From Pleurocapsa sp. PCC 7327 (GTDB taxonomy: Bacteria > Cyanobacteriota > Cyanobacteriia > Cyanobacteriales > Microcystaceae), in contig NC_019689.1 in NCBI RefSeq assembly GCF_000317025.1, forward strand, positions 2,271,501 through 2,335,500: 64,000 nt of DNA, given 5' to 3'. The translations under genes and the position numbers were made by a program. The notes under the pieces were generated by a model. It saw only the letters and a list, made by a program, of their open reading frames with translations. It had not been told where the DNA came from and made no database searches. Numbering within the stretch: position 1 is the stretch's first letter; the number at the start of each line of letters is the position of its first letter. This document shows, piece after piece, positions 6,597 to 28,739 of the stretch.

Positions 6597-8213
6597 ATGA
6601 GCGCTCATATTTTTCTTAACAAAAAACTTATTGTTGGAATTATTACATTTATTAGTGTAGCGATCGCAGCTATTTATAGTAACTTTTTTGTATCGGATGG
6701 CGTTCGAGCAGCCGCCCAAAAACCAAATATCGTAATCATCATGGCGGATGATTTGGGCTGGAATGACGTAGGTTATCATAACTCTGAAATTAAAACTCCC
6801 AATCTAGACAAATTAGCCGAATCTTCTACGAGACTGGATAGATTTTATGTCACTAGCTCGTGTACTCCAACTCGTGCTGCACTCATGACAGGAAGGCATC
6901 CTTCTCGTTATGGAATGTCATCTGGTGTCATATGGCCCTGGGATAAAGTTGGTTTGCCTCTCGAAGAAAAAACAATCGCTCAAACCTTAAAAGAAGCAGG
7001 TTACTATACAGCGATTGTCGGGAAATGGCATCTCGGTCACTACAAAGAAGAATACTTACCAACTCGCAGAGGATTTGATTATCATTACGGGCATTATTGC
7101 GGCAGTATCGATTACTTTACTCACCAATTAGATGCAGGGATACAAGGCGGGTTGGATTGGCATCGAAACGAACAACCTGTCGAGGAAGAAGGGTACGCAA
7201 CAGATTTACTTGCTCAAGAAGCTGTCAAGTTGATTCGCGACTGCGATTATAACAAATCTCCCTTATTCCTTTATGTTTCTTTCAACGCTCCTCACGCTCC
7301 TTTACAGGCTAAAGAAAAAGACATTAAAAATTATGCCAATATCCAAGATGAAGGGCGGAGAATTTTTGCCGCTCAAGTGCAATCGATGGATGAAGCAGTC
7401 GGTAGAATTGTTGCAGCCCTTAAAGAAAAACAAGTCTGGGACAATACCCTACTGTTTTTTACTAGCGATAATGGCGGAGGAAGCGACCAACCCTGGACTA
7501 GAGGTGATAATCGTCCTTTGAGAGGTCAAAAAGGTACTTTATACGACGGAGGAGTTCGAGTTCCAACCATAATTTCCTTTCCAGCTCAATTAAAAGGCGG
7601 TCAAGTCATCGAGCAAGTTTTCTCGGTAGTCGATTTATATCCTACTTTAGCTAAGTTAGCTGGGGTTAAGGAAAGTTCTCAAAATCAACTCGATGGAGTA
7701 GATATCCTAGAATCTATCGCTACTGGTTCGACTCGACGGGATGAGGTCTTAATACAATACCAAGCACTTGCCTCGCCGCCATGGTTTAAGGCCGCCTTAG
7801 TTAAGGAGAATTATAAGCTAGTTCTCAATAGCACTTCACCCTCACCCTATTACGGTATCGCAGAACTATTCAATCTTAAAAACGACCCATTGGAAACTCG
7901 CAATCTCGCTTATTCCGAACCAGAAAAAGTTCTAGAACTACAAAAGCGAGTAGAAGCTCATAAAAAAGAGGCAAAATCTCCTATATTGAATAATTCTACT
8001 GAAATGCCGCCAGGTTTTGTAATTCCTAAAGTTTGGTCGCCTAAATACTTACAGGCAAGTCGAGACAAAGAGAAATCTCCTAGAAGAACTAGGATATTAG
8101 ATAAATTTTCTACACGCTCTATTGTTCTTGTTTCTTTCTTTATGGGTGTTTTGAGTGGTTCTGTAGCAACCATAGTGTTAATGTTTATCCGAAAAAGAAA
8201 GATCGCAGTATAG
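6597..8213 (+). CDS. Membrane-anchored sulfatase (arylsulfatase family)
   Basis: 538 residues of the alkaline-phosphatase superfamily. The metal site begins with PNIVIIMADDLGWNDVGY; the sulfatase signature is SSCTPTRAALMTGRHP, in which the Cys of CTPTR is the residue oxidised to formylglycine; GKWHLGHYK and TSDNGGGSDQPW complete the active site. There is an N-terminal hydrophobic segment (about residues 9-30, signal anchor) and a second one at the C terminus (VLVSFFMGVLSGSVATIVLMF) followed by a basic tail, so the enzyme probably faces the periplasm. It would remove sulfate esters. With a sulfotransferase next door this suggests editing or recycling of a sulfated glycan. Requires an active formylglycine-generating enzyme. 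Confidence 0.93.
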   Translation: MSAHIFLNKKLIVGIITFISVAIAAIYSNFFVSDGVRAAAQKPNIVIIMADDLGWNDVGYHNSEIKTPNLDKLAESSTRLDRFYVTSSCTPTRAALMTGRHPSRYGMSSGVIWPWDKVGLPLEEKTIAQTLKEAGYYTAIVGKWHLGHYKEEYLPTRRGFDYHYGHYCGSIDYFTHQLDAGIQGGLDWHRNEQPVEEEGYATDLLAQEAVKLIRDCDYNKSPLFLYVSFNAPHAPLQAKEKDIKNYANIQDEGRRIFAAQVQSMDEAVGRIVAALKEKQVWDNTLLFFTSDNGGGSDQPWTRGDNRPLRGQKGTLYDGGVRVPTIISFPAQLKGGQVIEQVFSVVDLYPTLAKLAGVKESSQNQLDGVDILESIATGSTRRDEVLIQYQALASPPWFKAALVKENYKLVLNSTSPSPYYGIAELFNLKNDPLETRNLAYSEPEKVLELQKRVEAHKKEAKSPILNNSTEMPPGFVIPKVWSPKYLQASRDKEKSPRRTRILDKFSTRSIVLVSFFMGVLSGSVATIVLMFIRKRKIAV

Positions 8214-8260
8214 TTGTGGCTAAGTATTCATGATTCCCAATATAAAAAAATCGACGAACT

Positions 8261-9076
8261 ATGCGTAACGTTGTTATATTAGGCTCTGGGCGAAGCGGCA
8301 CCAGTATGGTAGCGGGAACCCTATCTCAAGCGGGCTACTTTATGGGAGAAGATTTTTGGCCCACCCGCAATGCCAATCCCAAGGGTTTTTTTGAAGACGT
8401 AGAAATCAATGAAATCAATGAAGATATTCTAGAGCCAGTCATTCCCAAGCGGTTGCATATCCCCGCAATAAAAATTAGAAGGCTGCGCCTACACATCCCC
8501 GAACGAGCTTTCTTTCGCAATCGCCCTCTCAAATGGCATCGGTGGCTAGCTTGCGTGCCCGTAAAGACTGAGATTCCCTCTTCTCCTCAAATTATAGAGC
8601 GAATCCAGAAAATTACAAAAAAAGAGCCTTACTGCCTAAAAGACCCCCGCTTTTCTTACACGCTTCCTGTATGGAAGCCTTATCTAAAAGATACTGCGTT
8701 TATTTGCGTATTTCGCGATCCGGCTAGTACTGTCTTGAGTATTTTGAAAGAATGCAGCAGCGTCGATCATTTATGCCACGAAATAACGGGGATAAGACTA
8801 TCTTGGCAACAAGCTTTAGAAATGTGGACGCTCATGTACGAGCATATTTTAGAAAAACACTCTCATGAGGGAGAATGGCTATTTATTCACTACAATCAAG
8901 CTGTTTCTCCAGAAGGTTTAAATAGATTAGAAACTTTTACGGGAGCATCGGTCGATCGCTCTTTTCCCAATCCTAATATTCGCCGCTCATTTTCGGATAA
9001 ATCCGTTCCTAAAAAAACGATGAAAATTTATCAGAAGCTATGTGAGCTTGCCAATTATGAGGTTGATTTAAGGTAA
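8261..9076 (+). CDS. Sulfotransferase-family protein
   Basis: 271 residues. The PAPS 5'-phosphosulfate loop is VILGSGRSGTSMVAGTLSQAG near the N terminus, and the 3'-phosphate site is FICVFRDPASTVLSIL around residues 146-161, the two hallmarks of P-loop sulfotransferases. It would move a sulfonate from PAPS to a sugar (or less likely a lipid) acceptor in the cytosol. It lies 47 bases after the sulfatase and directly before a methyltransferase and a glycosyltransferase, so a glycan substrate is the natural inference. Bacterial members of this family are sequence-divergent, so acceptor identity is open. Confidence 0.85.
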   Translation: MRNVVILGSGRSGTSMVAGTLSQAGYFMGEDFWPTRNANPKGFFEDVEINEINEDILEPVIPKRLHIPAIKIRRLRLHIPERAFFRNRPLKWHRWLACVPVKTEIPSSPQIIERIQKITKKEPYCLKDPRFSYTLPVWKPYLKDTAFICVFRDPASTVLSILKECSSVDHLCHEITGIRLSWQQALEMWTLMYEHILEKHSHEGEWLFIHYNQAVSPEGLNRLETFTGASVDRSFPNPNIRRSFSDKSVPKKTMKIYQKLCELANYEVDLR

Positions 9077-9124
9077 ATGGTTATTGGTGACTGGGAAATA
9101 TTGGTATATAAAGAGGAAAAATCC

Positions 9125-9874
9125 ATGGAAACTAATGTAATTGAATTACTTGAGAGAGAGCAGCCAATGTTTCATTTAAAAAGCTTGACTCAAGAAGTTC
9201 CAAATGCTGAGAATTTTTTCTTTAAACGAGGTACTACAGAGACACAAGAATTTTCTCGAACGTTTTATACGATTGGCAAAGATGTTTTGAATTATATTGC
9301 ATCTATCGTCAAACCAGATTATGTCACTCTGGAAACTGGTGGAGGCTATTCTACCGTTGTATTTGCCACTAATGCTAAAGAGCATATTTGCGTCAATCCA
9401 GATATAACTGCTAATCAGTTAGTAAAAGATTGGTTGCGCGATCGCGGTTACACTTGCGATAATTTATACTTTATTGAAGATTCTTCGGATCGCGGATTGG
9501 CAAAACTAGCACTATCAAAATCATCAGAATCAATCGATGTCGCGCTAATCGATGGAAGTCATAGTTTTCCTTTTCCTATAGTAGATTGGCATTTTATAGA
9601 CTTATTTTTAAAAGCTGGCGGCAAACTTCTTGTCGATGATACTCAAATTAACTCTGTCAAAATATTGAGCGATTTTTTATTGCTTGAGCCATCTTATAAA
9701 AAAATTGCTGAAATTGGTAAATGTATCGTTTTTGAAAAAACAAGCGATGCTAGAGCGATGGGATGGCTCGACCAAGAAATTAACAAGCGACCTTTGACAG
9801 GGTTTTCAGAGCCAGAAGTTGCTAGAAAGATAAATCCTTTCAAAGCATTTTTACAAAGAATTGGTATCCTTTGA
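9125..9874 (+). CDS. Class I SAM-dependent methyltransferase (Methyltransf_24-like)
   Basis: 249 residues from the ATG at 9125, which has a GAGG site at 9113-9116; an in-frame ATG at 9077 abuts the previous stop codon but has no such site. SAM-binding motif I is VTLETGGGYSTVVFAT; the acidic residue and post-motifs are VALIDGSHSFPFPIVDW and KAGGKLLVDD. The DGSH...D arrangement is typical of cyanobacterial Methyltransf_24 enzymes found among capsule and EPS genes. It probably modifies the same glycan as its neighbours; oxygen versus nitrogen target is unknown. Confidence 0.8.
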   Translation: METNVIELLEREQPMFHLKSLTQEVPNAENFFFKRGTTETQEFSRTFYTIGKDVLNYIASIVKPDYVTLETGGGYSTVVFATNAKEHICVNPDITANQLVKDWLRDRGYTCDNLYFIEDSSDRGLAKLALSKSSESIDVALIDGSHSFPFPIVDWHFIDLFLKAGGKLLVDDTQINSVKILSDFLLLEPSYKKIAEIGKCIVFEKTSDARAMGWLDQEINKRPLTGFSEPEVARKINPFKAFLQRIGIL

Positions 9875-15636: not shown

Positions 15637-17124
15637 TTACACTTTCAACAGCGCCTCGCCCCGTTCGTAAAGCGTGTGAGCATAATCCGTCCAAGTCCCT
15701 TGTCCCCAGTAACGGAAGCAACTGGTTTGCAATAACAGGTTATACAGCAAAGCTTCGTGATAGTCAGGACGCTTCGTTACCGAGGGATCTTGCTTGACCA
15801 ACGGGTCATATTTTTCGTGGAACATGGCACTCAACTTATTCATTGGTTCGAGAACATTTTCATAACCGCGAACCCAACTGAGATTATTTGTCCAAGAGGC
15901 ACCATCCATATGGAATTGATGGTCGGTTTGTTTCAATTGTGCTATTGCCTTTTCCACGGCTTCTGGCGTAGCCTTATCCGGTTCGACTCGCTGCCAAATC
16001 TTGTGTTGCCCAATAGCCTGACAAGTCGGATAGTCGTCGGGATTGACACCTGCTGCTTCAAGCAGTTCTATATATTCAGTGCCGTTGATGCCGACAACAC
16101 CTGCCGTGTTGATTCCATTATCTTTGATTTCATACCAAACGGGTTGAAAATCGCGAGGAAATTCGTTCATCATCACGCCGCCATTTTCTCCATCGGCAAT
16201 CTGAGTGACGCAACTGGGAACGCTTACATTGCCAATTTGCTGCTTGCCCCGTCCTTTCGCTTCGTGATAGGGCTGCATCTGGGCGACTAATTTCGTATCC
16301 GAACCTTGCGTTTTAATCAACGCCGTGATGCTGATAGTTTCCCCCTTGGAATTGCGGGCAATCAAGCTGTTGGGAACGTATTTATCCTCATGCCGCAACC
16401 CCGAACCATCTAGGCGTTCTACTGAATGCTCCTGCACCAATAGCCAACGATAGCCGCATTCTTTAAGCGCCTTAATATACTCGTAGAGCGTATCTGGATG
16501 GTTGGGTAGGTGCATTTCTGGCGGCGAGAAGCCCTTGACGCGCTTGAGGGCATCGTAACCAAAAATAGCAGCAAAGTACTGTTGCCATGCCTGAATGTGT
16601 AATTTGATGTCGGGAATGGGCGTGGAAGGAACGACAGCATGACTCCACATCGTCCCCAGCCATTCGACATAGGGTTGATACTGGGGATCGCAAGCAATGC
16701 GTTTAAGATTGTTAATAATGTCTTCTCGCCTCATCTGATGCAATCCCCACAACAGATTGCCCGAATAGTCGAGCATGATGCGAGGATTGCAACCATTACT
16801 CACTAGTTCGGGAATGAAATCGCCCATGCGACTATAACACCAGGCAAAAACCCCCGCATTGTGGTTATCTCCCTCGCCGGAATGCTCGAACATGTATTGG
16901 AGATTGCTAATGAGTTCGCCATTTGGTCCAGCGGGAATGGTGGGTTGATGCATATGCAGGGCACATGCAAATCCTGCCGTAATGTTTTCTAAGCGAAGGT
17001 TTGTTGTGGGTAAGAAGATCGGTTCGTTGTGATTGACGACTGCATTAATTTCTGCTTCCCAACCGCAAATATTCGGCAATTCCGATTGGGTCGGCAGGTT
17101 GGGAGATGGGACTGTTGCGATCAT
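15637..17124 (-). CDS. Glycoside hydrolase family 57 protein
   Basis: 495 residues from the ATG at 17124, which is preceded by AAGGAA at good spacing; an in-frame start 69 bases upstream lacks this. FACALHMHQPTIPAG is the GH57 N-terminal motif, and GFSPPEMHLPNHPDTL probably carries the catalytic Glu. GH57 enzymes act on alpha-glucans (amylases, 4-alpha-glucanotransferases, branching enzymes). In cyanobacteria a role in glycogen metabolism is plausible but this subfamily is not characterised as far as I know. There is no signal peptide. Confidence 0.88.
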   Translation of the reverse strand: MIATVPSPNLPTQSELPNICGWEAEINAVVNHNEPIFLPTTNLRLENITAGFACALHMHQPTIPAGPNGELISNLQYMFEHSGEGDNHNAGVFAWCYSRMGDFIPELVSNGCNPRIMLDYSGNLLWGLHQMRREDIINNLKRIACDPQYQPYVEWLGTMWSHAVVPSTPIPDIKLHIQAWQQYFAAIFGYDALKRVKGFSPPEMHLPNHPDTLYEYIKALKECGYRWLLVQEHSVERLDGSGLRHEDKYVPNSLIARNSKGETISITALIKTQGSDTKLVAQMQPYHEAKGRGKQQIGNVSVPSCVTQIADGENGGVMMNEFPRDFQPVWYEIKDNGINTAGVVGINGTEYIELLEAAGVNPDDYPTCQAIGQHKIWQRVEPDKATPEAVEKAIAQLKQTDHQFHMDGASWTNNLSWVRGYENVLEPMNKLSAMFHEKYDPLVKQDPSVTKRPDYHEALLYNLLLQTSCFRYWGQGTWTDYAHTLYERGEALLKV

Positions 17125-17410
17125 AAGTTTTTCCTTAATATTTGCGACTGTGCGGATACTTTCCCACACCACACTTAGGCGCGAATCTATCATACATTAC
17201 ATATAGCTTGCCTCTGCTTTAAGTAAAATTTAAGTAAAAGTGCTAGGGTCAGGATGTCCCGATCGCACCTAAATCAATAAAACCGAACGCGATCGCGCGG
17301 AAAGTTTCATTTTCGCAATACAATCCCCAATAATTTGCTGGAGCGCGATAGATTAGGCTTAGTTTGCCTTAATTCATAATACTCGCCGCGATCGCTAGTG
17401 AGGAGGGTCT

Positions 17411-18780: not shown

Positions 18781-21700
18781 TTAATTCAGCTTGGCAATCT
18801 CTTGTGCGATCGCATCGATCGTAAAATGAATCTGTTCCTCTGTATGCGTACAACTGATAAAGAAGCGCAAGCGAGAAGCATTGTAAGGCACGGAGGGATA
18901 AACCATCGGTTGGACGTTAATACCGCGTCTAGAGAGTGCCTGGGACAACTGCACGGCTTTGTAAGGTTCGCCAACAATAATGGGCACGATGGGCGAATCC
19001 TGACTGTTTCCTGTATTGAGTCTTTTACTCTTTGCCAACTCTAGGAATAGTTTAGCGCGATCGCGCAGGCGAGATACCCGTTCTGGTTCGGCTTTGAGCA
19101 GTTGGATTGCTGCCAGTGCTGCTGCTGCATTGGGCGGAGACATGCCGACGCTAAAGACAAAGCCCGGTGCCGTATATTTCAAATATTCCACTACTTCCCG
19201 ACATCCAGCAATATAACCGCCGCAGCTAGCAAAAGATTTACTGAGCGTTCCCATCCATAAATCGACATCAGCGGGCGCAATCCCAAAATATTCGCCAATA
19301 CCGCGACCATAAACCCCTAATACGCCGATTGAATGCGCTTCATCCACTAGAATAAAGGTTTTGTATCGTTTTTTTATCTTGACAAATTCTGGTAAATATG
19401 CTAAATCTCCATCAGTACTGTAAATTCCCTCGATCGCAATGAGGACTTTTTCATATTCGTGGCGGCATTGGGACAAAATGCGATTGAGGGTTTGCCAATC
19501 GTTGTGCGGGAATTCGATAATCGTTGCGCCCGATAGTTTACAGCCTTCTCGAATGCTGTTATGGCTGAGAGCATCGCAGAGAATGAGATCGTTTTTTCCA
19601 AATAAATGACCGATGGTAGTGACATTGGTCGCGTGACCGCCAATGTAGGCAATGCAATCCTCTGTGCCCAGAAAATCGGCAATTTCGCGCTCTAGCTCTT
19701 GATGGAGCGGTCTTTCTCCCGAAACGACGCGGCTTGCCGAGACAGAAGTCCCGTAACGCGCGATCGCGTCTATCGCTGCTTGGGAGACAGTTGCATCCCC
19801 CGACATTCCCAGATAATTGTAGCTGGAATAGTTGATTAATTCGCGATCGCCAACTCGAATCGCATCTGCTGCAATCCCGTCGTAGACTTCAAAGAAAGGA
19901 TTGCCAAGCTTCTCGACTCTTTCTAAATCTTTTCGGAGGTTGAGGTACTCTGGCATCAGCCGAAATTGATAGAGTTCTGGTCTAATTTCTCGATTTGTTA
20001 ACGTTTCGGAAGTTTTGCTGCCATTATTATTGGGAGATTCATTGACGATTGCTTGCTCGTTAGACCGAACCATCGATTCATTAATCATTCCTAGGGTAGA
20101 TGGCTTTTCGTTCGATTGTATGGTTAATTGATTGATAGAACTCGGACTGGGCGATCGCAAGCTCGATTGGGTGGAAAAGCCATCAACTGATTCTCCTGCA
20201 AATAGTTCTTGAGCAAGATAATTTGTCAGCAATTCTATTGTTGGGTGGTCGAAAGCGGAAGTGAGCGGAATAGAAATACCTAGACTCGTTTGGAGAGAGT
20301 TTTTAAGCTCTACAGCCATCAAAGAGTCCATTCCTAGGTCGCCAAAATTTTGTTGGGGTTCGATGAGTTCGGGCGAACTGAACCCCAACACTTTCGCAAC
20401 TTGCGAGCGAACGCGATCGAATAGTAGCGTTTTGCGATCGCTACTCGCTGCTGATTCTAACTGTTGTAGAAACTCAGAGCGTGGCTGTACTAATTTTTCT
20501 TCTGACTTAGGCGTTACTGCTTCAAAGAAAGATGTTTCGGGAAGTTGTTTGAGAAAAATTGACCAATTGACAGGTAACGCGCCAACCTGAGTGGCTTGCT
20601 GTTGCAGCAATTCTTTTAATAACTGCAATCCTGGTTGCAACGCGATCGCACTCAATCCTTGCTGTTCCAATCTAGCTTGGTTTTGAGCCGATAATTCAGC
20701 CGCCATCCCCACATCTGCCCAAACTCCCCAATTAACGCTCAAAGCAGGTAATCCCATTCCTCGGCGATAGTGAACGAGAGCATCCATAAATGCATTAGCC
20801 GCCGCATAATTGCCTTGACCGGGAGAACCGATTAAAGAGGCAATAGAGGAAAAACAGACAAAAAAGTCTAGCGGTAAATCTTGGGTTGCCACGTGTAAAT
20901 TCCACGCGCCTTGTACTTTGGGAGCCATGACTCGCTCAAAACGCTCCCAGGTCTGTTTTAGAAGCACGCCATCATCGAGAATGCCAGCAGCGTGAATGAT
21001 GCCCCTTAACTGGATTTTGGATTGAATTTTCTGATAGAAAACAATGATTCGAGCTACATCCTCTGGATTGGAGATATCGGCTTGAATAACACAAACTCTA
21101 GCGCCTGCTTTTTCGAGTTGGCTAATCGTTTCCTGGGCTGCTTGTGAAGATTGGCTGCGTCCGACTAAAACTAAATGCTTTGCTCCTTGCTCGACTAGCC
21201 AACGAGCTACTTGGAGTCCCAACGCCCCCAAACCTCCCGTAATCAGGTAGCTCCCATCTTCTCTAATCATAAAGGGTTGAGAGGCAATTTGTGGCAGCGA
21301 GATAACGACCTTGCCGATGTGCTTCGCTTGCGCCATATAGCGAAAAGCACTAGCTGCCTCTTCTATCGGAAATACCGTATGAGGAAGGGGACGTAGAGAC
21401 CTTTGATGAAACTCCTGTATCAATTCCTCAAGCATTGAGGCGATTAAACTGGGGCGATCCTGCGATACGTTTAACAGATCGAAAGGAAAGTAAGCAACAT
21501 CGGCTCTTTTTTCTCTAACTTGGCTTTCATCCCAAATACCGATTTTGCCAATTTCGACAAATCGACCTCCTGGGGCAAGAATTTCGAGATTTTTAGCAAT
21601 AAATTCCCCATTTAAGCTATTGAGTACGATATCGACTCCTTGCCCGTCCGTCAACGCCATCACTTCTTCGGCAAAATCCAGCGTTCGGGAGTTCATGACG

Positions 21701-24700
21701 TTTGTCACGCCTATGGATTTAAGGAATTCCCACTTTTTAGGACTAGCCGTAGCCAAAACCTCTGCCCCTGCTTTTTGGGCTAATTGGATGGCTGCTTGAC
21801 CGACTCCTCCCGCCGCCGCATGAATCAAAACGCGATCGCCTTTTTTAATTTTTGCTAGATAATGAAGTCCGTAGTAAGCCGTCAGAAATGTCGTTGGAAT
21901 CGTAGCGGCTTCCTCAAAGCTTAATTCCTTTGGCTTGCGAACCACAAATCGAGCATCGACCGTCACAAAACTACTCAAACCGCCAATCGCTTGCGCGGCA
22001 ATAACTTCATCGCCAACTTGAAGCCCTTCAACGCCTTCCCCAACTGCCACAATTTTTCCTGCGCATTCGCCGCCGAAAGGAACCTCAGCAGCATCGGCAA
22101 ATCCCATCTGTTCGAGGTATTCTTTGAGCATTCCCAGCGCATTGAGGACATCTCTGAAGTTTACCCCAGCTGCACAAACTTGAATTTCCACTTCTCCTGG
22201 GGCAGGAGAACGGCGAGTTGCCGGGGCAAGAGTTAAGTTGTCTAAAATCCCGTAGTCGGAAATTTTTAATTGGATGGGAGTATCTGACTGAGTTTGAGAA
22301 GTTCGTTGCATCAATCTGGGAAGGTAACGAATTCCCTGACGATAAGCTATTTGGTCTTCTGCATCTGGGGAATACAATTCTTCTAGCAGAGTTAGGATGT
22401 CATCGCTTTCCTCAGACGGGTCTAAATCTAGACATTTACATGGCAAGTCGGGGTGTTCTAATCTGATGACGCGCCCTAATCCCCACAGAGAAGATTGTTG
22501 TACTTGTATAGGAGTAGAATCTATTCCGACTGGCTGGGTTCCTCTAGTTGCTAGCCAAAGCTTAGGTAATTGAGGAAAACGCGCTTTGATTAGCGCCTGA
22601 ACCAGATGTAGGACACTGCCACATCCTAGAACTTGCGCTTGTTGTAAATCTGTTGTCACCTCTAGTCCCCAGAGATGAACGACCTTACAACAAGGCTTTA
22701 TCTGTTCAAATAATCGCTGGAAATCGTCTGGCTGAGTCGGGTCGATCTGATAGTGTCCCTCATCTGAGATAGCATAAGACTGACCTAGAAAAATGAGAAT
22801 AGCGCGATCGCCTTTTTCCTCAAGGGCTTTTGCTAACTTGACCCCTATTCCTTGTCGGTCAGCAAAGATTATCCAATTTTCTGCTGTCTTCTGCCCTAGA
22901 GATTCTGTCTTCTGCCTTTTAGAAGGCTGCCAAACAACTTCGTATAACCAATCTTCTAAATTTTCTTGTTTTGGTTCTGGAGCGAACTTCTGTAGCGATT
23001 GGCAGCTGACATACTGAAGTGATAAACCTTCAATTTGAGCGATTAAAATACCATTTTCATCAAATAATTGTAAATCTGCCTTTAGTCGTTGCCCAGTAGT
23101 GTAACCGTTAGTAGGATTATCTTTCCCGACTTTAACGCGACTCCACAAATAATGGCTCGAACGGCGATAAACATGCAGTCGTTCTAATCCTACGGGTAAA
23201 TAAGTTCCCCTTTCATCCTCCGCAAAAGCTGCGCCTAAAAGCTGAAAACAGCTATCTAATAAGACAGGATGTAACTGATAGTTTTCTGCTTCAAAAGTTA
23301 GTATTTCTGGTAATTGAATCTGTCCCAATACTTGCCCTTGAAACTGCCAAAGTTGTTTGATTCCTTGAAAGCTTATACCATAGCAAAGACCTTGCTCTCG
23401 CAACTTTTGATAGTAATCTAAAACTGAAAGTGAATTTTGAATGAATTCTGCCTGCGACCGGGCTAACTCAGATTGAAAAGGTTGTTCGTTTTTATCCTCT
23501 ACATCGATTGTTCCAGAAGCATGAAGGATAAAAGATGATTCTGTAGTTTCTTCATCAATCGTGCTGCTAAAAATTTGAAAAGAATAACCTGATAAAGTTT
23601 TAGGAATAAGGATTATCTGAAGCGTTTTGAGTTCGTTTTCTGGTAAGATTAGAGGCTGTGCGATCGCAAATTCCTCTAATCGCAAGCGATCCGATTTGAA
23701 GAGGTTTGCCCCTGCTGCTAATGCCATTTCCAGGTAAGCTGTAGCCGGAAAAATTGGCTGAGTATCAAGGCAATGGTCTTTTAAATAAGTAGGCGAATCC
23801 TGACTGATTTGCGCCTGAAAACGAATCTCCTTCGTGCCTGCTAGATGTAATCGTTGACCGAGTAGAGGATGATTTGAATTTTGGATTGGGGATTGACACT
23901 CATTTAATTTTGGACTTTTCCACCAAAAGCGCTGACGTTGGAAAGGATAAGTTGGCAGGTGTACCAGAGTGTGAGGAGAATTGCGATCGAAACCAAACCA
24001 ATCGACGCTTACTCCCCGCACATACAATTGAGCCAAACTCTCAAGCAATTGTTGCCAGTCGGAAGTTCCCGGACGCAAACTCGGCAACCACAAATTGGAG
24101 TTTGGATTTTCTAAAATAGAGCGTGCCATCCCTAAAAGGATGGGTTTGGCTCCAATTTCTACAAAGGCTTGATATCCTAGCCGATGCAACGTTTCTAGAC
24201 TTTGGGCATATCTAACCGGTTGCCGGATGTGGCGGCACCAATATTCTGGCGTAGCGATTTCTTCGCCGATAGCTTCTCCAGTCAGGTTGGAGATTAATTC
24301 TATCCTTGGAGGGGAATAAGTAATCTGGCGAGCAACTGTTTCAAATTCTGCTAAGATTGGCTCCATCAAAGGGGAGTGAAAGGCATGGGAGACGTTAAGG
24401 GGTTTCGTCTCAATCCCCCCTGCTTTTAATTGGGAAACTATCCTCTCGATTGCCTCGCGCTTGCCAGAAATGACGAGATTTTCGTAGCCGTTAATAGCTG
24501 CTAGATTGACTTGCTGTTGGTAGGGGGCAATGGCAGTACTAACTCTTGCCTCGCTGGCGAAAACAGCTACCATTGTCCCATCTGGTGGCAATTGCTGCAT
24601 CAAGCGCCCTCTGGCGGCAATCAGTTTGAGTCCATCTTCGAGACTAAAGACTCCTGCCACGCAAGCAGCGACGTATTCCCCGACGCTATGACCGATAACG

Positions 24701-26619
24701 GCAGTTGGAGAGATGCCCCAGGATTGCCAAAGTTCGTAGAGGGCATATTCAATAGCGAATAGGGCGGGTTGGGTGTAGGCTGTTTCGTCTAATTTTGGAT
24801 TAATACGCCGGTCATCTGAATACAACACTTCAAGTAATGGTTTATCTAGATAGGGTTGCACAATTTCGGCGCATCTATCTAAGGCGGCGCGGAAGGTAGG
24901 TTGAGTTTGATATAGTTCTCGTCCCATTCCGAGGTATTGCGAACCTTGACCTGTAAATAAAAATGCTAGGTTAGAAATGCGATCGCTCGTTATCTGACCC
25001 CGTATTAATCCAGAGGTTTCCTGCCCCGATGCAAAAGCTTCTAGCTGCGATCGCAATTGTTCGGTCGATTTCGTTACGATCGCCAGGCGATGGTTAAACT
25101 GCGATCGTCTGGTATTAGCTGTAAAACAAACATCGGGCAAGCCTACTTCTGGATGGGACTCCAAAAACTCCTTGTATCGTCCCGCTAACTCCCTCAAAGC
25201 CTTCTCGCTTTTCGCCGAGAGAGTCAACAGATGTAGCGGACGCTTACTCCCCTCAGATAGAGAATTTACCTGCTCAACACTTCCTCCCCCCTTAATAAGG
25301 GGGGCAGGGGGGATTGTCTGGACGTGAAATTCTTCTAAAACCACATGAGCATTTGTACCCCCAAAGCCAAAAGAATTCACTCCCGCTAGAGCGGGAAAAG
25401 ATCGCTCTAACCAAGGCGTTAAAGTCGTTTGCACTCGCAAGGGAAGCTTATCAAACGCGATCGCAGGGTTAGGTTCTTGGAAATGCAAGCTTGGTGGAAT
25501 CTGCTTATATTTGAGCGCCAGCGCGACTTTAATCAATCCCGCAACGCCTGCGGCTGTTTCTGCATGTCCGATATTCGTTTTCACCGACCCAACAGCACAG
25601 TAATCCCCAGATTCGCGACCTTCTGCTAATACTGCTCCCAAGGCTTGCATTTCAATGGGATCGCCGATTTTTGTTCCCGTTCCGTGAGCCTCGACGTATT
25701 GGATCTGACTGGGAGAAACCCCTGCTCTGCGACAAGCTTCTCGGATAACGGCTTCCTGTGCCAAGGGATTAGGGGCTGCCAGTCCGTTCGTCCATCCGTC
25801 CTGATTGACTGCACTGCCGCGAATGACGGCATAGATATCATCGCCATCGGCTTGCGCTTGAGAAAGGGGCTTTAAAACAACAATTCCCGCTCCTTCGCTG
25901 CGAACGTAGCCATTAGCACCCGTGTCAAAACTCTTACAGCGACCGTCACCAGACAAAAAGCCGCCTTTGGCGAATCCTACCATTACCGTCGGCAGTAAGA
26001 TAACATTGACCCCGCCAGCCAAAGCCATTGTAGATTCGCCAGTCCAGATACTTTGGCAAGCCAGATGAACGGCGACTAGAGAAGAAGAACAAGCAGTATC
26101 GACAGCTAGACTGGGACCTTTGAAATCGAAGGCATAGGAGATGCGGTTAGCTGCAATGCAGTTTCCCGTTCCGGTTGTGGCGTAGGGGTCGCTCACCGGA
26201 TGCTGCCAGAGCATAATGGAGTAGTCGTGAGTGCCGATGCCGATAAAAACTCCCGTTTGCGTCCCTGCTAATTGTTCTGGGATTTGTCCGCCGTCTTCTA
26301 GGGCTTCCCATGCTACTTCTAGTAAAAGCCGTTGTTGGGGATCGATAGTATTGGCTTCTCGCGGTGAAATCCCGAAAAATTGAGGATCGAAGCGATCGAT
26401 CCCTTCTAAAAATCCGCCGCGACGAGTGTGGGTTTTACCAGGTTTAGCCGGGTCGGGATCGTAAAATCGGTCTACATCCCAGCGAGATTTTGGCACTTCA
26501 GAAATTGCTTCAACACCATTTCTCAGAAGTTGCCAAAAGGATTCAGGATTATTTGCACCAGGAAAACGACATCCTATTCCAACAATCGCAATAGGCTCTA
26601 ATGGTATGGTCGATCGCAT
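18781..26619 (-). CDS. Fully reducing type I polyketide synthase with terminal alpha-oxoamine synthase
   Basis: 2612 residues in one chain. Ketosynthase about 7-430 (Cys177 in DTACSSS, His312, His352); malonyl-type acyltransferase 548-830 (Ser644 in GHSVGEY, HAFH at 744-747); dehydratase 910-1205 (His948, Asp1121; the usual Gly of the His motif is Thr); a structural KR half 1225-1440; enoylreductase 1455-1775 ([10 protein letters not shown]); ketoreductase 1785-1965 ([10 protein letters not shown] motif at 1880-1882, Tyr1937); carrier protein with Ser2098 in LGMDSL; then a PLP-dependent oxoamine synthase 2210-2612 with Lys2460 in [12 protein letters not shown]. The last domain is of the family of serine palmitoyltransferase and AONS, and should release the acyl chain by decarboxylative condensation with an amino acid, giving an alpha-amino ketone. 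No thioesterase and no methyltransferase domain. A loading system and phosphopantetheinyl transferase are not in the window. Function is inferred from domains only. Confidence 0.95.
25283..25315. repeat. Dispersed C6/G6 repeat inside the PKS coding sequence
   Basis: CCTCCCCCCTTAATAAGGGG and the following GGCAGGGGGGATT match, in the opposite sense, the intergenic repeat at 846-889. Here it is read through in frame and encodes the [10 protein letters not shown] linker between ketosynthase and acyltransferase domains. Confidence 0.7.
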
Positions 26620-26864: not shown

Positions 26865-28739
26865 TTACATGAATTTCAGATCGGTTACAAGAGAAAAACA
26901 ACTATTTTTTGCTCTTTTAACCGACCACAATGATAGGACAGTCTCGCCAGGAATTAACTGTTTAGGTTGATAAACTTGCTCGATTTGAATGCGAGCTTCA
27001 TCTTTAATACGATTTCTTAAAGTTTCAGAGGGATTAAATAAAAATATTTCCTGGCAAGAATCAATGAATTGAGAGAATTGACTTGAGTCAGATAAAATTC
27101 CAACTTTGACTTTTTCTTTTAAGTTATGACTCAGGGATAAAATATCTATTGTTTGTGCCGAATCGACTAAGAGAAGTGGGTTCTTAGCTTCGTTCAAAAT
27201 TGTGGCAATGGGAAGATTATGAAAATTGCGGCTTTTTTGATAGATAGGCGATTTTCCTAGGTTTAAAATTCCCGAAACTATTCCGACTGAAATCAATCCA
27301 ACTGCGATCGCTTTCCAGATTTGCTGTTGCCTAGTTTTGAAAAGATGAGTAGCCTCAATCTTATTAGCTAATAAATAAGCTACAGCTAATTGGATTCCTA
27401 GTTGAAAAGGCATTAAATATCTAGGAGAACCAGAACTTTGATCCTTTAAAATTACATCATTGAGGATTAAAATTATAGGCGTTGATAGAGTTTGCGTCAG
27501 AATGAATAAACTGACTGGCTTGGGTGCTTGCGCAACAACAAAAAAAATTGAGAAAACCGTTAAGCTTAGCAACCCTAAAGCAATTAAAATTCCTACGGTT
27601 GCAACGGGTTCGAGGGCAGAATGAATAGGCAAATGATTAAAGCTAATGACAATACTAAATATTAAAATTAAGGGAGTTGAGATAGGCAAGCCGTAAATCA
27701 ATAACTTGGCTTTTTGATTTTTTCTAGATTTGAAAAAAATAAAATAAATTAATAGAGCGATTGCAATGATCGAAACAAGAACAATTAACAGCTTTACAAT
27801 TTTGAGATGTTCGAGAGAATTAGAAAGGGGAAGGTCACCAAAAGTTAAGAGAATAGTAGCTACAAAAATTGCTGCAATAAATGAAATTTCTACGGGATCT
27901 CTAACCCAGGTTGTATTATCTTGCAGCAACTGCCAGTGATGAAAAATTACGATCGCCCAAGGAACAAAAGTAATTAAGGCAATCCCCAAGGCGATTAGAT
28001 GATTTCTTACGGTTTTCGTATAACGAAAATTTTCTAAAGCAATAACATAAAATCCCTGTCCGACAGTAACTAAAAAAGATAATAGAGAAGTATAAAATCC
28101 AAAAATTAAAGTAACGGTATAGAAACCCCAACTCTGACGAGTATTAAGGCGAATGGCTCTCAGAAGCGCAACACCAGATAGTACAATCATCACTGTCCAC
28201 AAACTGTAGGGACGCGCTTCCTGGGCGTAGGCAATATAGAACGGAGAAACGCTAAAAAGCGCGATCGCCATCCATTTTACCCACGGGGATTTAAATAATT
28301 CCTGACATAGCCAAAAAAGACAGGGAAATGTCAATAAAGCGAACGCAACAGACAAGCTTCTCGTTGCCGTTATCGAACTGCCAAATAACTGTCGCCAAAA
28401 TCTCGCCATCAAAAAATATAGCGGAGTATGTTCTGGACTTTGCATCAAGGCATTGAGCGTATCGCCTAAACCTCGATCTCGACTCAGTTTCTGATATTGC
28501 TGCAAGTCCTCGATCCCAATGACCCCTCTATCGGCAAGTCGCTCGACGATCTCATCTCTGGTATAGCCTGCAGTGCGAGTTGCCGTAGCAACTTCATCAA
28601 CCCAAAAAATTTTGCGATCGAGATTGGCACAGCGAAAGAACAGCCCCAACAGAAAAATAACAATAACGAGAAACAGCCAAGCTTTGCGAACAATTCTATT
28701 GCAAGTTTTGTTGCGATCGCCAATCGACGATAGAGTCAT
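26865..28739 (-). CDS. GT-C membrane glycosyltransferase (PMT_2/GT39-like)
   Basis: 624 residues with about eleven membrane helices. The acidic motif of the first periplasmic loop is WVDEVATATRTAG, and HTPLYFLMARFWRQLFG and ARPYSLW are typical of the PMT_2/ArnT-like class, which uses polyprenyl-phosphate sugars at the outer face of the membrane. A soluble C-terminal region of about 130 residues follows the last helix. It is co-directional with and 245 bases upstream of the polyketide synthase gene, so it could glycosylate the PKS product, but they could equally be unrelated. Confidence 0.8.
   Translation of the reverse strand: MTLSSIGDRNKTCNRIVRKAWLFLVIVIFLLGLFFRCANLDRKIFWVDEVATATRTAGYTRDEIVERLADRGVIGIEDLQQYQKLSRDRGLGDTLNALMQSPEHTPLYFLMARFWRQLFGSSITATRSLSVAFALLTFPCLFWLCQELFKSPWVKWMAIALFSVSPFYIAYAQEARPYSLWTVMIVLSGVALLRAIRLNTRQSWGFYTVTLIFGFYTSLLSFLVTVGQGFYVIALENFRYTKTVRNHLIALGIALITFVPWAIVIFHHWQLLQDNTTWVRDPVEISFIAAIFVATILLTFGDLPLSNSLEHLKIVKLLIVLVSIIAIALLIYFIFFKSRKNQKAKLLIYGLPISTPLILIFSIVISFNHLPIHSALEPVATVGILIALGLLSLTVFSIFFVVAQAPKPVSLFILTQTLSTPIILILNDVILKDQSSGSPRYLMPFQLGIQLAVAYLLANKIEATHLFKTRQQQIWKAIAVGLISVGIVSGILNLGKSPIYQKSRNFHNLPIATILNEAKNPLLLVDSAQTIDILSLSHNLKEKVKVGILSDSSQFSQFIDSCQEIFLFNPSETLRNRIKDEARIQIEQVYQPKQLIPGETVLSLWSVKRAKNSCFSLVTDLKFM

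Follow-up and report, generated by a model that had tools for sequence, protein, structure and literature searches.

What kind of product leaves a polyketide synthase (PKS) that carries its release enzyme within its own chain? The question is raised by a gene of the cyanobacterium Pleurocapsa sp. PCC 7327, located in a 64,000-nucleotide stretch of contig NC_019689.1 (positions 2,271,501 to 2,335,500), which was analysed as a whole and is hereafter called the window. The gene encodes a reducing PKS that ends in an alpha-oxoamine synthase (AOS) domain. According to our comparative sequence analyses, it is reasonably probable that the PKS makes a saturated chain, that the AOS releases it with an amino acid, likely serine, and that a short-chain reductase (SDR) encoded elsewhere in the genome then yields a sphingoid base.

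The gene is one open reading frame (ORF) on the minus strand (18781..26619), with an ATG start, 2612 amino acids and no internal stops. Along the protein, Pfam domains follow in the order KS, AT, DH, psiKR, ER, KR, ACP and Aminotran_1_2, with scores above the cut-off for KS (336.6 and 149.5 bits), AT (221.5), DH (101.1 and 123.8), the ER-type ADH (85.5 and 73.7), KR (241.4), ACP (55.4) and Aminotran_1_2 (167.8; residues 2260-2604); the psiKR between DH and ER corresponds to Beta-ketacyl_N (residues 1250-1411). The residues of type I PKSs are in place at their motif positions (KS Cys177, His312 and His352; AT Ser645; ACP Ser2099), together with the AT motif HAFHS at 745, DH His949 and Asp1122/Gln1126, ER GGVG at 1604 and KR Tyr1938; we take these motifs, and those of the AOS, to carry their customary functions, HAFHS being presumably of the malonyl type. 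The presence of KS, AT, DH, ER, KR, ACP and a C-terminal oxoamine synthase in one chain, as proposed in the initial annotation, is thus confirmed by Pfam and motif positions, as is the low-complexity linker before the AOS, which is rich in Ser and Asn (Table 1), and the catalytic lysine, numbered 2461 and not 2460. Two genome samples were searched: 386 cyanobacterial genomes, and 214 genomes of the host's order, of which 138 (G386-G523), by inference, were new (genomes are denoted G, loci L). Across both, the PKS-AOS fusion is kept in six cyanobacterial families; since five of these are other than the host's, the ORF is no product of chance.

The AOS domain was compared with PDB sequences, where its best matches were serine palmitoyltransferases (SPT; human SPTLC2, 245.6 bits; Sphingobacterium SPT, 242.2 bits) and the promiscuous AOS 8s1y (214.5 bits), with lower matches to KBL (up to 202.9 bits) and AONS (193.6 bits). 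An AlphaFold model of the domain (pLDDT 84.2) had as its first Foldseek match the Sphingobacterium multivorum SPT with L-serine (3a2b, E 1.8e-37), and VIA-align gave Z scores of 47.9 for SPT (rmsd 2.5, 390 aligned), 47.5 for KBL and 46.5 for AOS 8s1y; the modelled fold is that of a fold type I pyridoxal phosphate (PLP) enzyme of the SPT/KBL/AONS kind. Furthermore, the catalytic set located by motif positions (His2353, Asp2426, His2429, Lys2461 and Arg2585) aligns with the S. multivorum SPT and is invariant in 20 cyanobacterial rows. Sequence, predicted fold and catalytic residues all identify the C-terminal domain as an oxoamine synthase, which upholds the identity first given to it. It is very improbable that the AOS is a degenerate passenger and the chain is instead released as a free acid or other ester: no product is known, and a literature search from which subscription papers mostly lay outside found none for cyanobacterial PKS-AOS proteins, as the initial annotation had held, but the catalytic residues are intact, the domain is 62-74% identical to fused homologues of other genera, and six families have kept the fusion.

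The amino acid used by the AOS requires further weighing. The NCBIfam SPT models all score under their cut-offs (322/640, 289/500 and 210/670 bits), and the BioF model TIGR00858, also under its cut-off (351/426 bits), scores above all of them; with SPT and KBL tied in the fold comparison, models and fold therefore leave the amino acid undecided. These scores count against serine, and they would suit an enzyme that takes Ala, Gly or a different amino acid and forms 1-deoxy-type amino ketones or pyrrole/alkaloid precursors, as would the several amino acids taken by the wider AOS family and the additional KS protein and START/cyclase-type genes at the G011 and G123 loci. We consider this alternative unlikely, however, given that the best PDB sequence matches are SPTs and that the window AOS has its GTSVSASR stretch, as well as the His/Asp/Lys/Arg set, in common with the AOS rows of Pseudomonas putida and Bordetella loci. 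In addition, SgaB of Pseudomonas fluorescens is a proven serine palmitoyltransferase that forms 3-ketosphinganines from L-serine with a nearly exclusive preference and hardly accepts Ala or Gly, as described in the available text of its report (PMC12134224). Because of SgaB and the common GTSVSASR stretch, L-serine is most likely the substrate, by analogy with these relatives. In the tree, a separate BioF-like gene of the host (L004, 3642746) does not group with the AOS clade.

In the mechanism that we favour, the mono-modular, fully reducing PKS, whose set of reducing domains is complete, would extend an acyl chain by malonyl units and leave it saturated on the ACP; the fused PLP domain would carry out a decarboxylative condensation of this acyl thioester with an amino acid (L-serine being the most likely one) and release the chain as a 3-keto-sphinganine-like 2-amino ketone; the SDR (G000:C1:1155451-1156320) would reduce the ketone to a sphingoid base, and this base would then probably be acylated, hydroxylated and glycosylated. 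We infer from the sequences serine, chain length, priming, the substrate of the reductase and the final lipid. The level of reduction had been called uncertain in the initial annotation, on account of a Thr in place of Gly in the DH His motif. The Thr is real, and Gly is missing in 19 of 27 related DH rows (one of the 19 being a second copy of the same contig), present in six (L097, L114, L116, L142, L158 and L162) and unclear in two (L046_2 and L136), so that Thr as the sign of a dead DH is unsupported. None of the five cyanobacterial fused rows has Gly (Thr, Thr, Thr, Glu and Asn), and among 13 DH rows of proteobacterial PKS+AOS loci Gly is absent in seven, present in five and unclear in one; the doubt is weak because loci of this type make sphinganines in P. 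fluorescens.

Decarboxylative release as an alpha-amino ketone, the second part of the initial proposal, is likewise supported by sequence and analogy, although the amino ketone is probably an intermediate, because an SDR co-occurs with the AOS clade. In the first sample, the AOS domain was found at 450.9 bits or more in 19/386 genomes, the next row scoring 268.4 bits; in the second, it was found at E <=1e-90 in 47/214 genomes, with a less clean score gap (a full-length row of G458 at 361 bits, and one row that is a contig-edge fragment). The SDR was recognized in G296, where FAAL-ACP, PKS-AOS and SDR genes follow in this order on one strand; its host orthologue, at 1.155 Mb, is 62% identical (next best 35%). 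Of the 386 genomes, 17 have an SDR orthologue, and 13 of these 17 also belong to the 19 with the AOS (Fisher p 1.1e-16; by genus 11/13, p 3.7e-11), and among the new genomes of the second sample AOS occurs in 24 of 27 SDR genomes and SDR in 24 of 33 AOS genomes (p 2e-16), significances that are overstated, as the tests count genomes or genera as independent; the second-sample SDR genomes without AOS are G434, G445 and G457. All sampled genomes with a fused PKS-AOS have the SDR (4/4 in the first sample, 7/7 new in the second). Moreover, a 58% identical reductase adjoins the AOS in an alphaproteobacterial PKS+AOS locus, and the 3-ketosphinganine reductase TSC10 is among the top PDB matches of the SDR (98.0 bits vs 99.8 for the first).

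Several observations speak against the mechanism that we favour. TSC10 ties with ordinary reductases among these PDB matches. Six of the 19 AOS genomes have no SDR (G002, G022, G235, G237, G251 and G382), the SDRs at the AOS loci of G382 and G002 being of another subfamily, and the AOS clade is absent from four of the 17 SDR genomes (G058, G083, G211 and G118); in the first three of these, an ORF of ~1100 amino acids adjoining the SDR contains a more distant AOS (FAAL-ACP-AOS confirmed in G058 and G211), and no AOS was found in G118. The SDR is not the best host match to the P. putida locus SDR (27%), and a common subfamily for the cyanobacterial SDR and the latter was rejected, since another host SDR matches better. 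Genome searches placed in the window no fatty acyl-AMP ligase (FAAL), no orthologous reductase or other SDR match, and no phosphopantetheinyl transferase, of which the host has one, of the ACPS family. Finally, the host has two AOS genes of the clade, that of the window and an ACP-AOS of 553 amino acids at 4.90 Mb, so that the SDR might serve the latter instead. The ACP-AOS gene (L039, G000:C1:4892000-4911000, 7954-9615) is flanked by an IS200-transposase-like ORF and rimM, with no adjoining FAAL.

As regards priming, the module may extend, in a single round, a fatty acid that a FAAL supplies in trans, or it may be iterative. We give about equal weight to a single extension, a variant of the mechanism proposed above in which the chain would reach the module in trans, from a FAAL-ACP or a different PKS module, and its length would be fixed by the starter. 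A FAAL-ACP directly upstream of the PKS-AOS in G296 and another PKS module near it in G123, Chroococcus FPU101 and G011 agree with such a transfer, as do the six FAAL genes of the host, four of them without a PKS in the stretches read and two resembling FAALs of the G360 ACP-AOS locus (68.5% and 63.5% identity). The host loci L079 and L081 hold a FAAL with two PKS genes, and a 2842-amino-acid protein of the order FAAL-ACP-KS-AT-KR-ACP, which resembles olefin synthase. On the other hand, the window contains no FAAL and no other KS, nor do the ~20-kb stretches read around seven homologues of the same order, and therefore iteration fits as well; SgaAB, iterative in the view of its authors as given in the text at hand (PMC12134224), likewise stands alone.

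Genome mining for the same architecture and its neighbours, as suggested at the outset, placed in one clade of the AOS tree (SH-aLRT 100) 13 cyanobacterial AOS domains preceded by a reducing PKS: those of the window, G011, G123, G296, G406, G420, G431, G454, G466, G498, G522, Chroococcus FPU101 (in three ORFs as read) and cf. Phormidesmis LEGE 11477 (truncated at a contig end). One further fused AOS, that of Pleurocapsa sp. CCALA 161 (L116, a truncated row in which no ER was seen), is not part of this clade. The seven second-sample homologues are 56-61% identical to the window protein across its length. In the KS tree, five fused cyanobacterial rows form a clade (96) apart from surrogate KS domains of the SgaA type; approximately unbiased (AU) tests rejected a single clade of planctomycete and cyanobacterial fused KS (p 0.002) and did not reject a sister relation of the cyanobacterial fused and SgaA-type KS (p 0.219; surrogate loci), with which the idea of a PKS half surely unrelated to SgaA-type PKSs was withdrawn. 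The window KS, psiKR, ER and AOS have their best matches in fused siblings, and AT, DH, KR and ACP in other cyanobacterial PKSs (AT 71% and ACP 65% identical to a PKS of the same genome); because of this split, domains have probably been exchanged between PKSs.

The AOS occurs in at least five layouts: fused to a reducing PKS, as FAAL-ACP-AOS, with ACP alone (cyanobacterial ACP-AOS proteins of 536-577 amino acids), free near FAAL and ACP genes, and free behind PKS genes. In a scan of named genomes, from which the best 80 of at least 574 AOS relatives were retained, there were many planctomycetes, as well as Proteobacteria in which the AOS gene comes after a PKS gene; this SgaAB layout was seen in Pseudomonas putida (L128), Bordetella (L127), Marinobacterium (L136) and Thiothrix (L162). 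Elsewhere, in Ectobacillus, Nocardia and Rhodococcus (L122, L140 and L165), a FAAL gene precedes short KS-AT modules to which the AOS is fused, and near-identical AOS adjoin split PKS-like ORFs in L044 (G022) and L102 (Dolichospermum circinale AWQC310F). A B12-binding radical SAM protein (DUF4070, scanned in L043) is encoded near AOS in L043, L051, L052 and L049, the loci of this kind being Planktothrix-type plus G360, with two FAAL genes each.

Oxoamine synthases release or extend an acyl or polyketide chain in the fumonisin (PKS/Fum8), prodigiosin (PigH/RedN) and saxitoxin (SxtA) systems, with other layouts and products. The closest known system is SgaAB of P. fluorescens MYb115, for which an article of 2025, whose main text does not mention cyanobacteria, described the formation of sphinganines by PKS and AOS; according to its available text, SgaAB too pairs a reducing mono-modular PKS with an AOS, and an SDR is proposed as ketone reductase (PMC12134224). 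SgaAB was compared here through the surrogate loci L128 and L127 rather than the MYb115 sequences. Their AOS belong to the window's family (P. putida, 54% identical), but SgaAB consists of two genes and the window enzyme of one chain, the PKS domains of the surrogates are only 26-49% identical to the window's, the window has no candidate for the KDS-reductase gene expected of such a cluster, that of the host being at 1.155 Mb, and the cyanobacterial fused AOS form their own clade; the P. putida locus SDR, not proven to be SgaC, is of another subfamily than the host SDR. The planctomycete fusions L109 and L145 have the window's domain order in one chain, but are independent by the AU test given above, with AOS among planctomycete rows. 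FAAL-ACP-AOS proteins of planctomycetes and cyanobacteria, such as A-CP-PLP2 rows and the Synechococcus PCC 7002 protein B1XHP8 (PMC3870968), also feed the AOS from a fused ACP, with an AOS of the same family in the loci examined; unlike in the window, the chain comes from a fatty acid ligase, with no PKS. In Rhodobacteria, as far as the accessible text describes, the oxoamine synthase likewise draws its acyl chains from an ACP and an acyl-ACP ligase dedicated to it (AasR/AcpR/SPT; PMC9386255), whereas the proteins are separate, with a classical SPT and no PKS. Vibrio vitroprocines are amino-polyketide lipids that their authors, in the part of the article available, tie to an SPT-like gene; they contain Tyr or Phe, not serine, and are likened here by description and not by gene comparison (PMC4523872). 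A 2013 survey of AOS domains in PKS/NRPS proteins lacks the window's domain order in its Table 2, and includes a model of the AOS domain from a Synechococcus PCC 7002 AMP-binding protein (PMC3870968).

Additional genes associated with the AOS point to lipid tailoring. An Asp/Asn-hydroxylase-type gene (PF05118) occurs at E <=1e-30 in 26/386 genomes and at 316 bits or more, a limit chosen after the list was seen, in ten, eight of them AOS genomes (p 2.8e-10 by genome, 1.7e-6 by genus); the host is one of these eight, with the gene at 1504987-1505745. Enzymes of this type, such as LpxO, hydroxylate acyl chains at position 2. A GT4 subfamily (39-55% identity) is encoded near AOS or SDR in L040, L255, L258, L043, L051, L052, L088, L216 and L217, with a 31% relative 2.6 kb from the host SDR, and a PagL-like outer membrane gene is common to L040, L086 and L258. 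The PMT_2-type gene just upstream of the PKS-AOS is a possible tailoring gene, because relatives are encoded near PKS-AOS in G011 (two), G454 and G498; the family is thus represented in 4/11 complete fused loci (window, L040, L252 and L258). Its distribution does not support a system-specific gene, the family being present in 79/386 genomes. Taken together, the hydroxylase, GT4, PMT_2 and PagL-like genes suggest a glycosylated, hydroxylated sphingoid lipid. Two further features of the window were recorded: a 518-amino-acid ORF (15637-17193, minus strand) with no Pfam or NCBIfam match at E 0.001, and the palindrome CCCCCTT..AAGGGGG, located in the KS-AT linker of the PKS gene (25287-25303) and at a second site (858-874), with four strand matches (two sites) vs 0.22 expected.

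Table 1. Features of the PKS-AOS gene and its upstream neighbour, in window coordinates.
Feature	Position	Strand	Basis or remark
Whole gene, single-chain PKS-AOS, 2612 aa	18781..26619	-	
KS domain, residues 8-430	25330..26598	-	Pfam + motifs
AT domain, residues 551-874, HAFHS motif	23998..24969	-	Pfam + motifs
DH domain, residues 917-1209, His949/Asp1122	22993..23871	-	Pfam + motifs
psiKR (structural half of KR), residues 1247-1419	22363..22881	-	Pfam
ER domain, residues 1450-1775	21295..22272	-	Pfam + motifs
KR domain, residues 1785-1974	20698..21267	-	Pfam + motifs
ACP, residues 2066-2139, Ser2099	20203..20424	-	Pfam + motifs
Ser/Asn-rich ACP-AOS linker, residues 2140-2224	19948..20202	-	composition
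AOS domain, residues 2225-2611, PLP Lys2461 codon at 19237-19239	18787..19947	-	
PMT_2-type glycosyltransferase, just upstream of PKS-AOS	26865..28739	-	possible tailoring gene

Ceramide-type sphingolipids have been reported in two cyanobacteria, Scytonema julianum and Moorea producens, and according to the available text of a 2022 study, a genetic basis for cyanobacterial sphingolipids had not been reported; the study found no SPT in Nostoc punctiforme, noted extra AOS genes in both ceramide cyanobacteria and singled out a second AOS-like sequence of M. producens, of 571 amino acids, as worth testing (PMC8895605). On the sequence evidence, the PKS-AOS clade is a gene candidate for these lipids. 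More tentatively, and with less than even confidence, cyanobacteria may have their own glycosphingolipid pathway distinct from the classical SPT operons of bacteria, leading from a ligase or PKS through ACP to the fused AOS with serine, a dedicated SDR, 2-hydroxylation by the Asp/Asn-hydroxylase-type enzyme, glycosylation by GT4 and PMT_2 enzymes and the outer membrane, in which the PKS-AOS would add a chain-extended base to the one made by the ACP-AOS. The AOS clade, comprising ACP-AOS and PKS-AOS, and the co-occurring SDR turn an open genetic question into a direct heterologous expression test. If the proposal is true, polyketide-made sphingoid bases would extend from Pseudomonas (SgaAB) to photosynthetic bacteria, with a release enzyme that, unlike in SgaAB, is built into the PKS chain itself.

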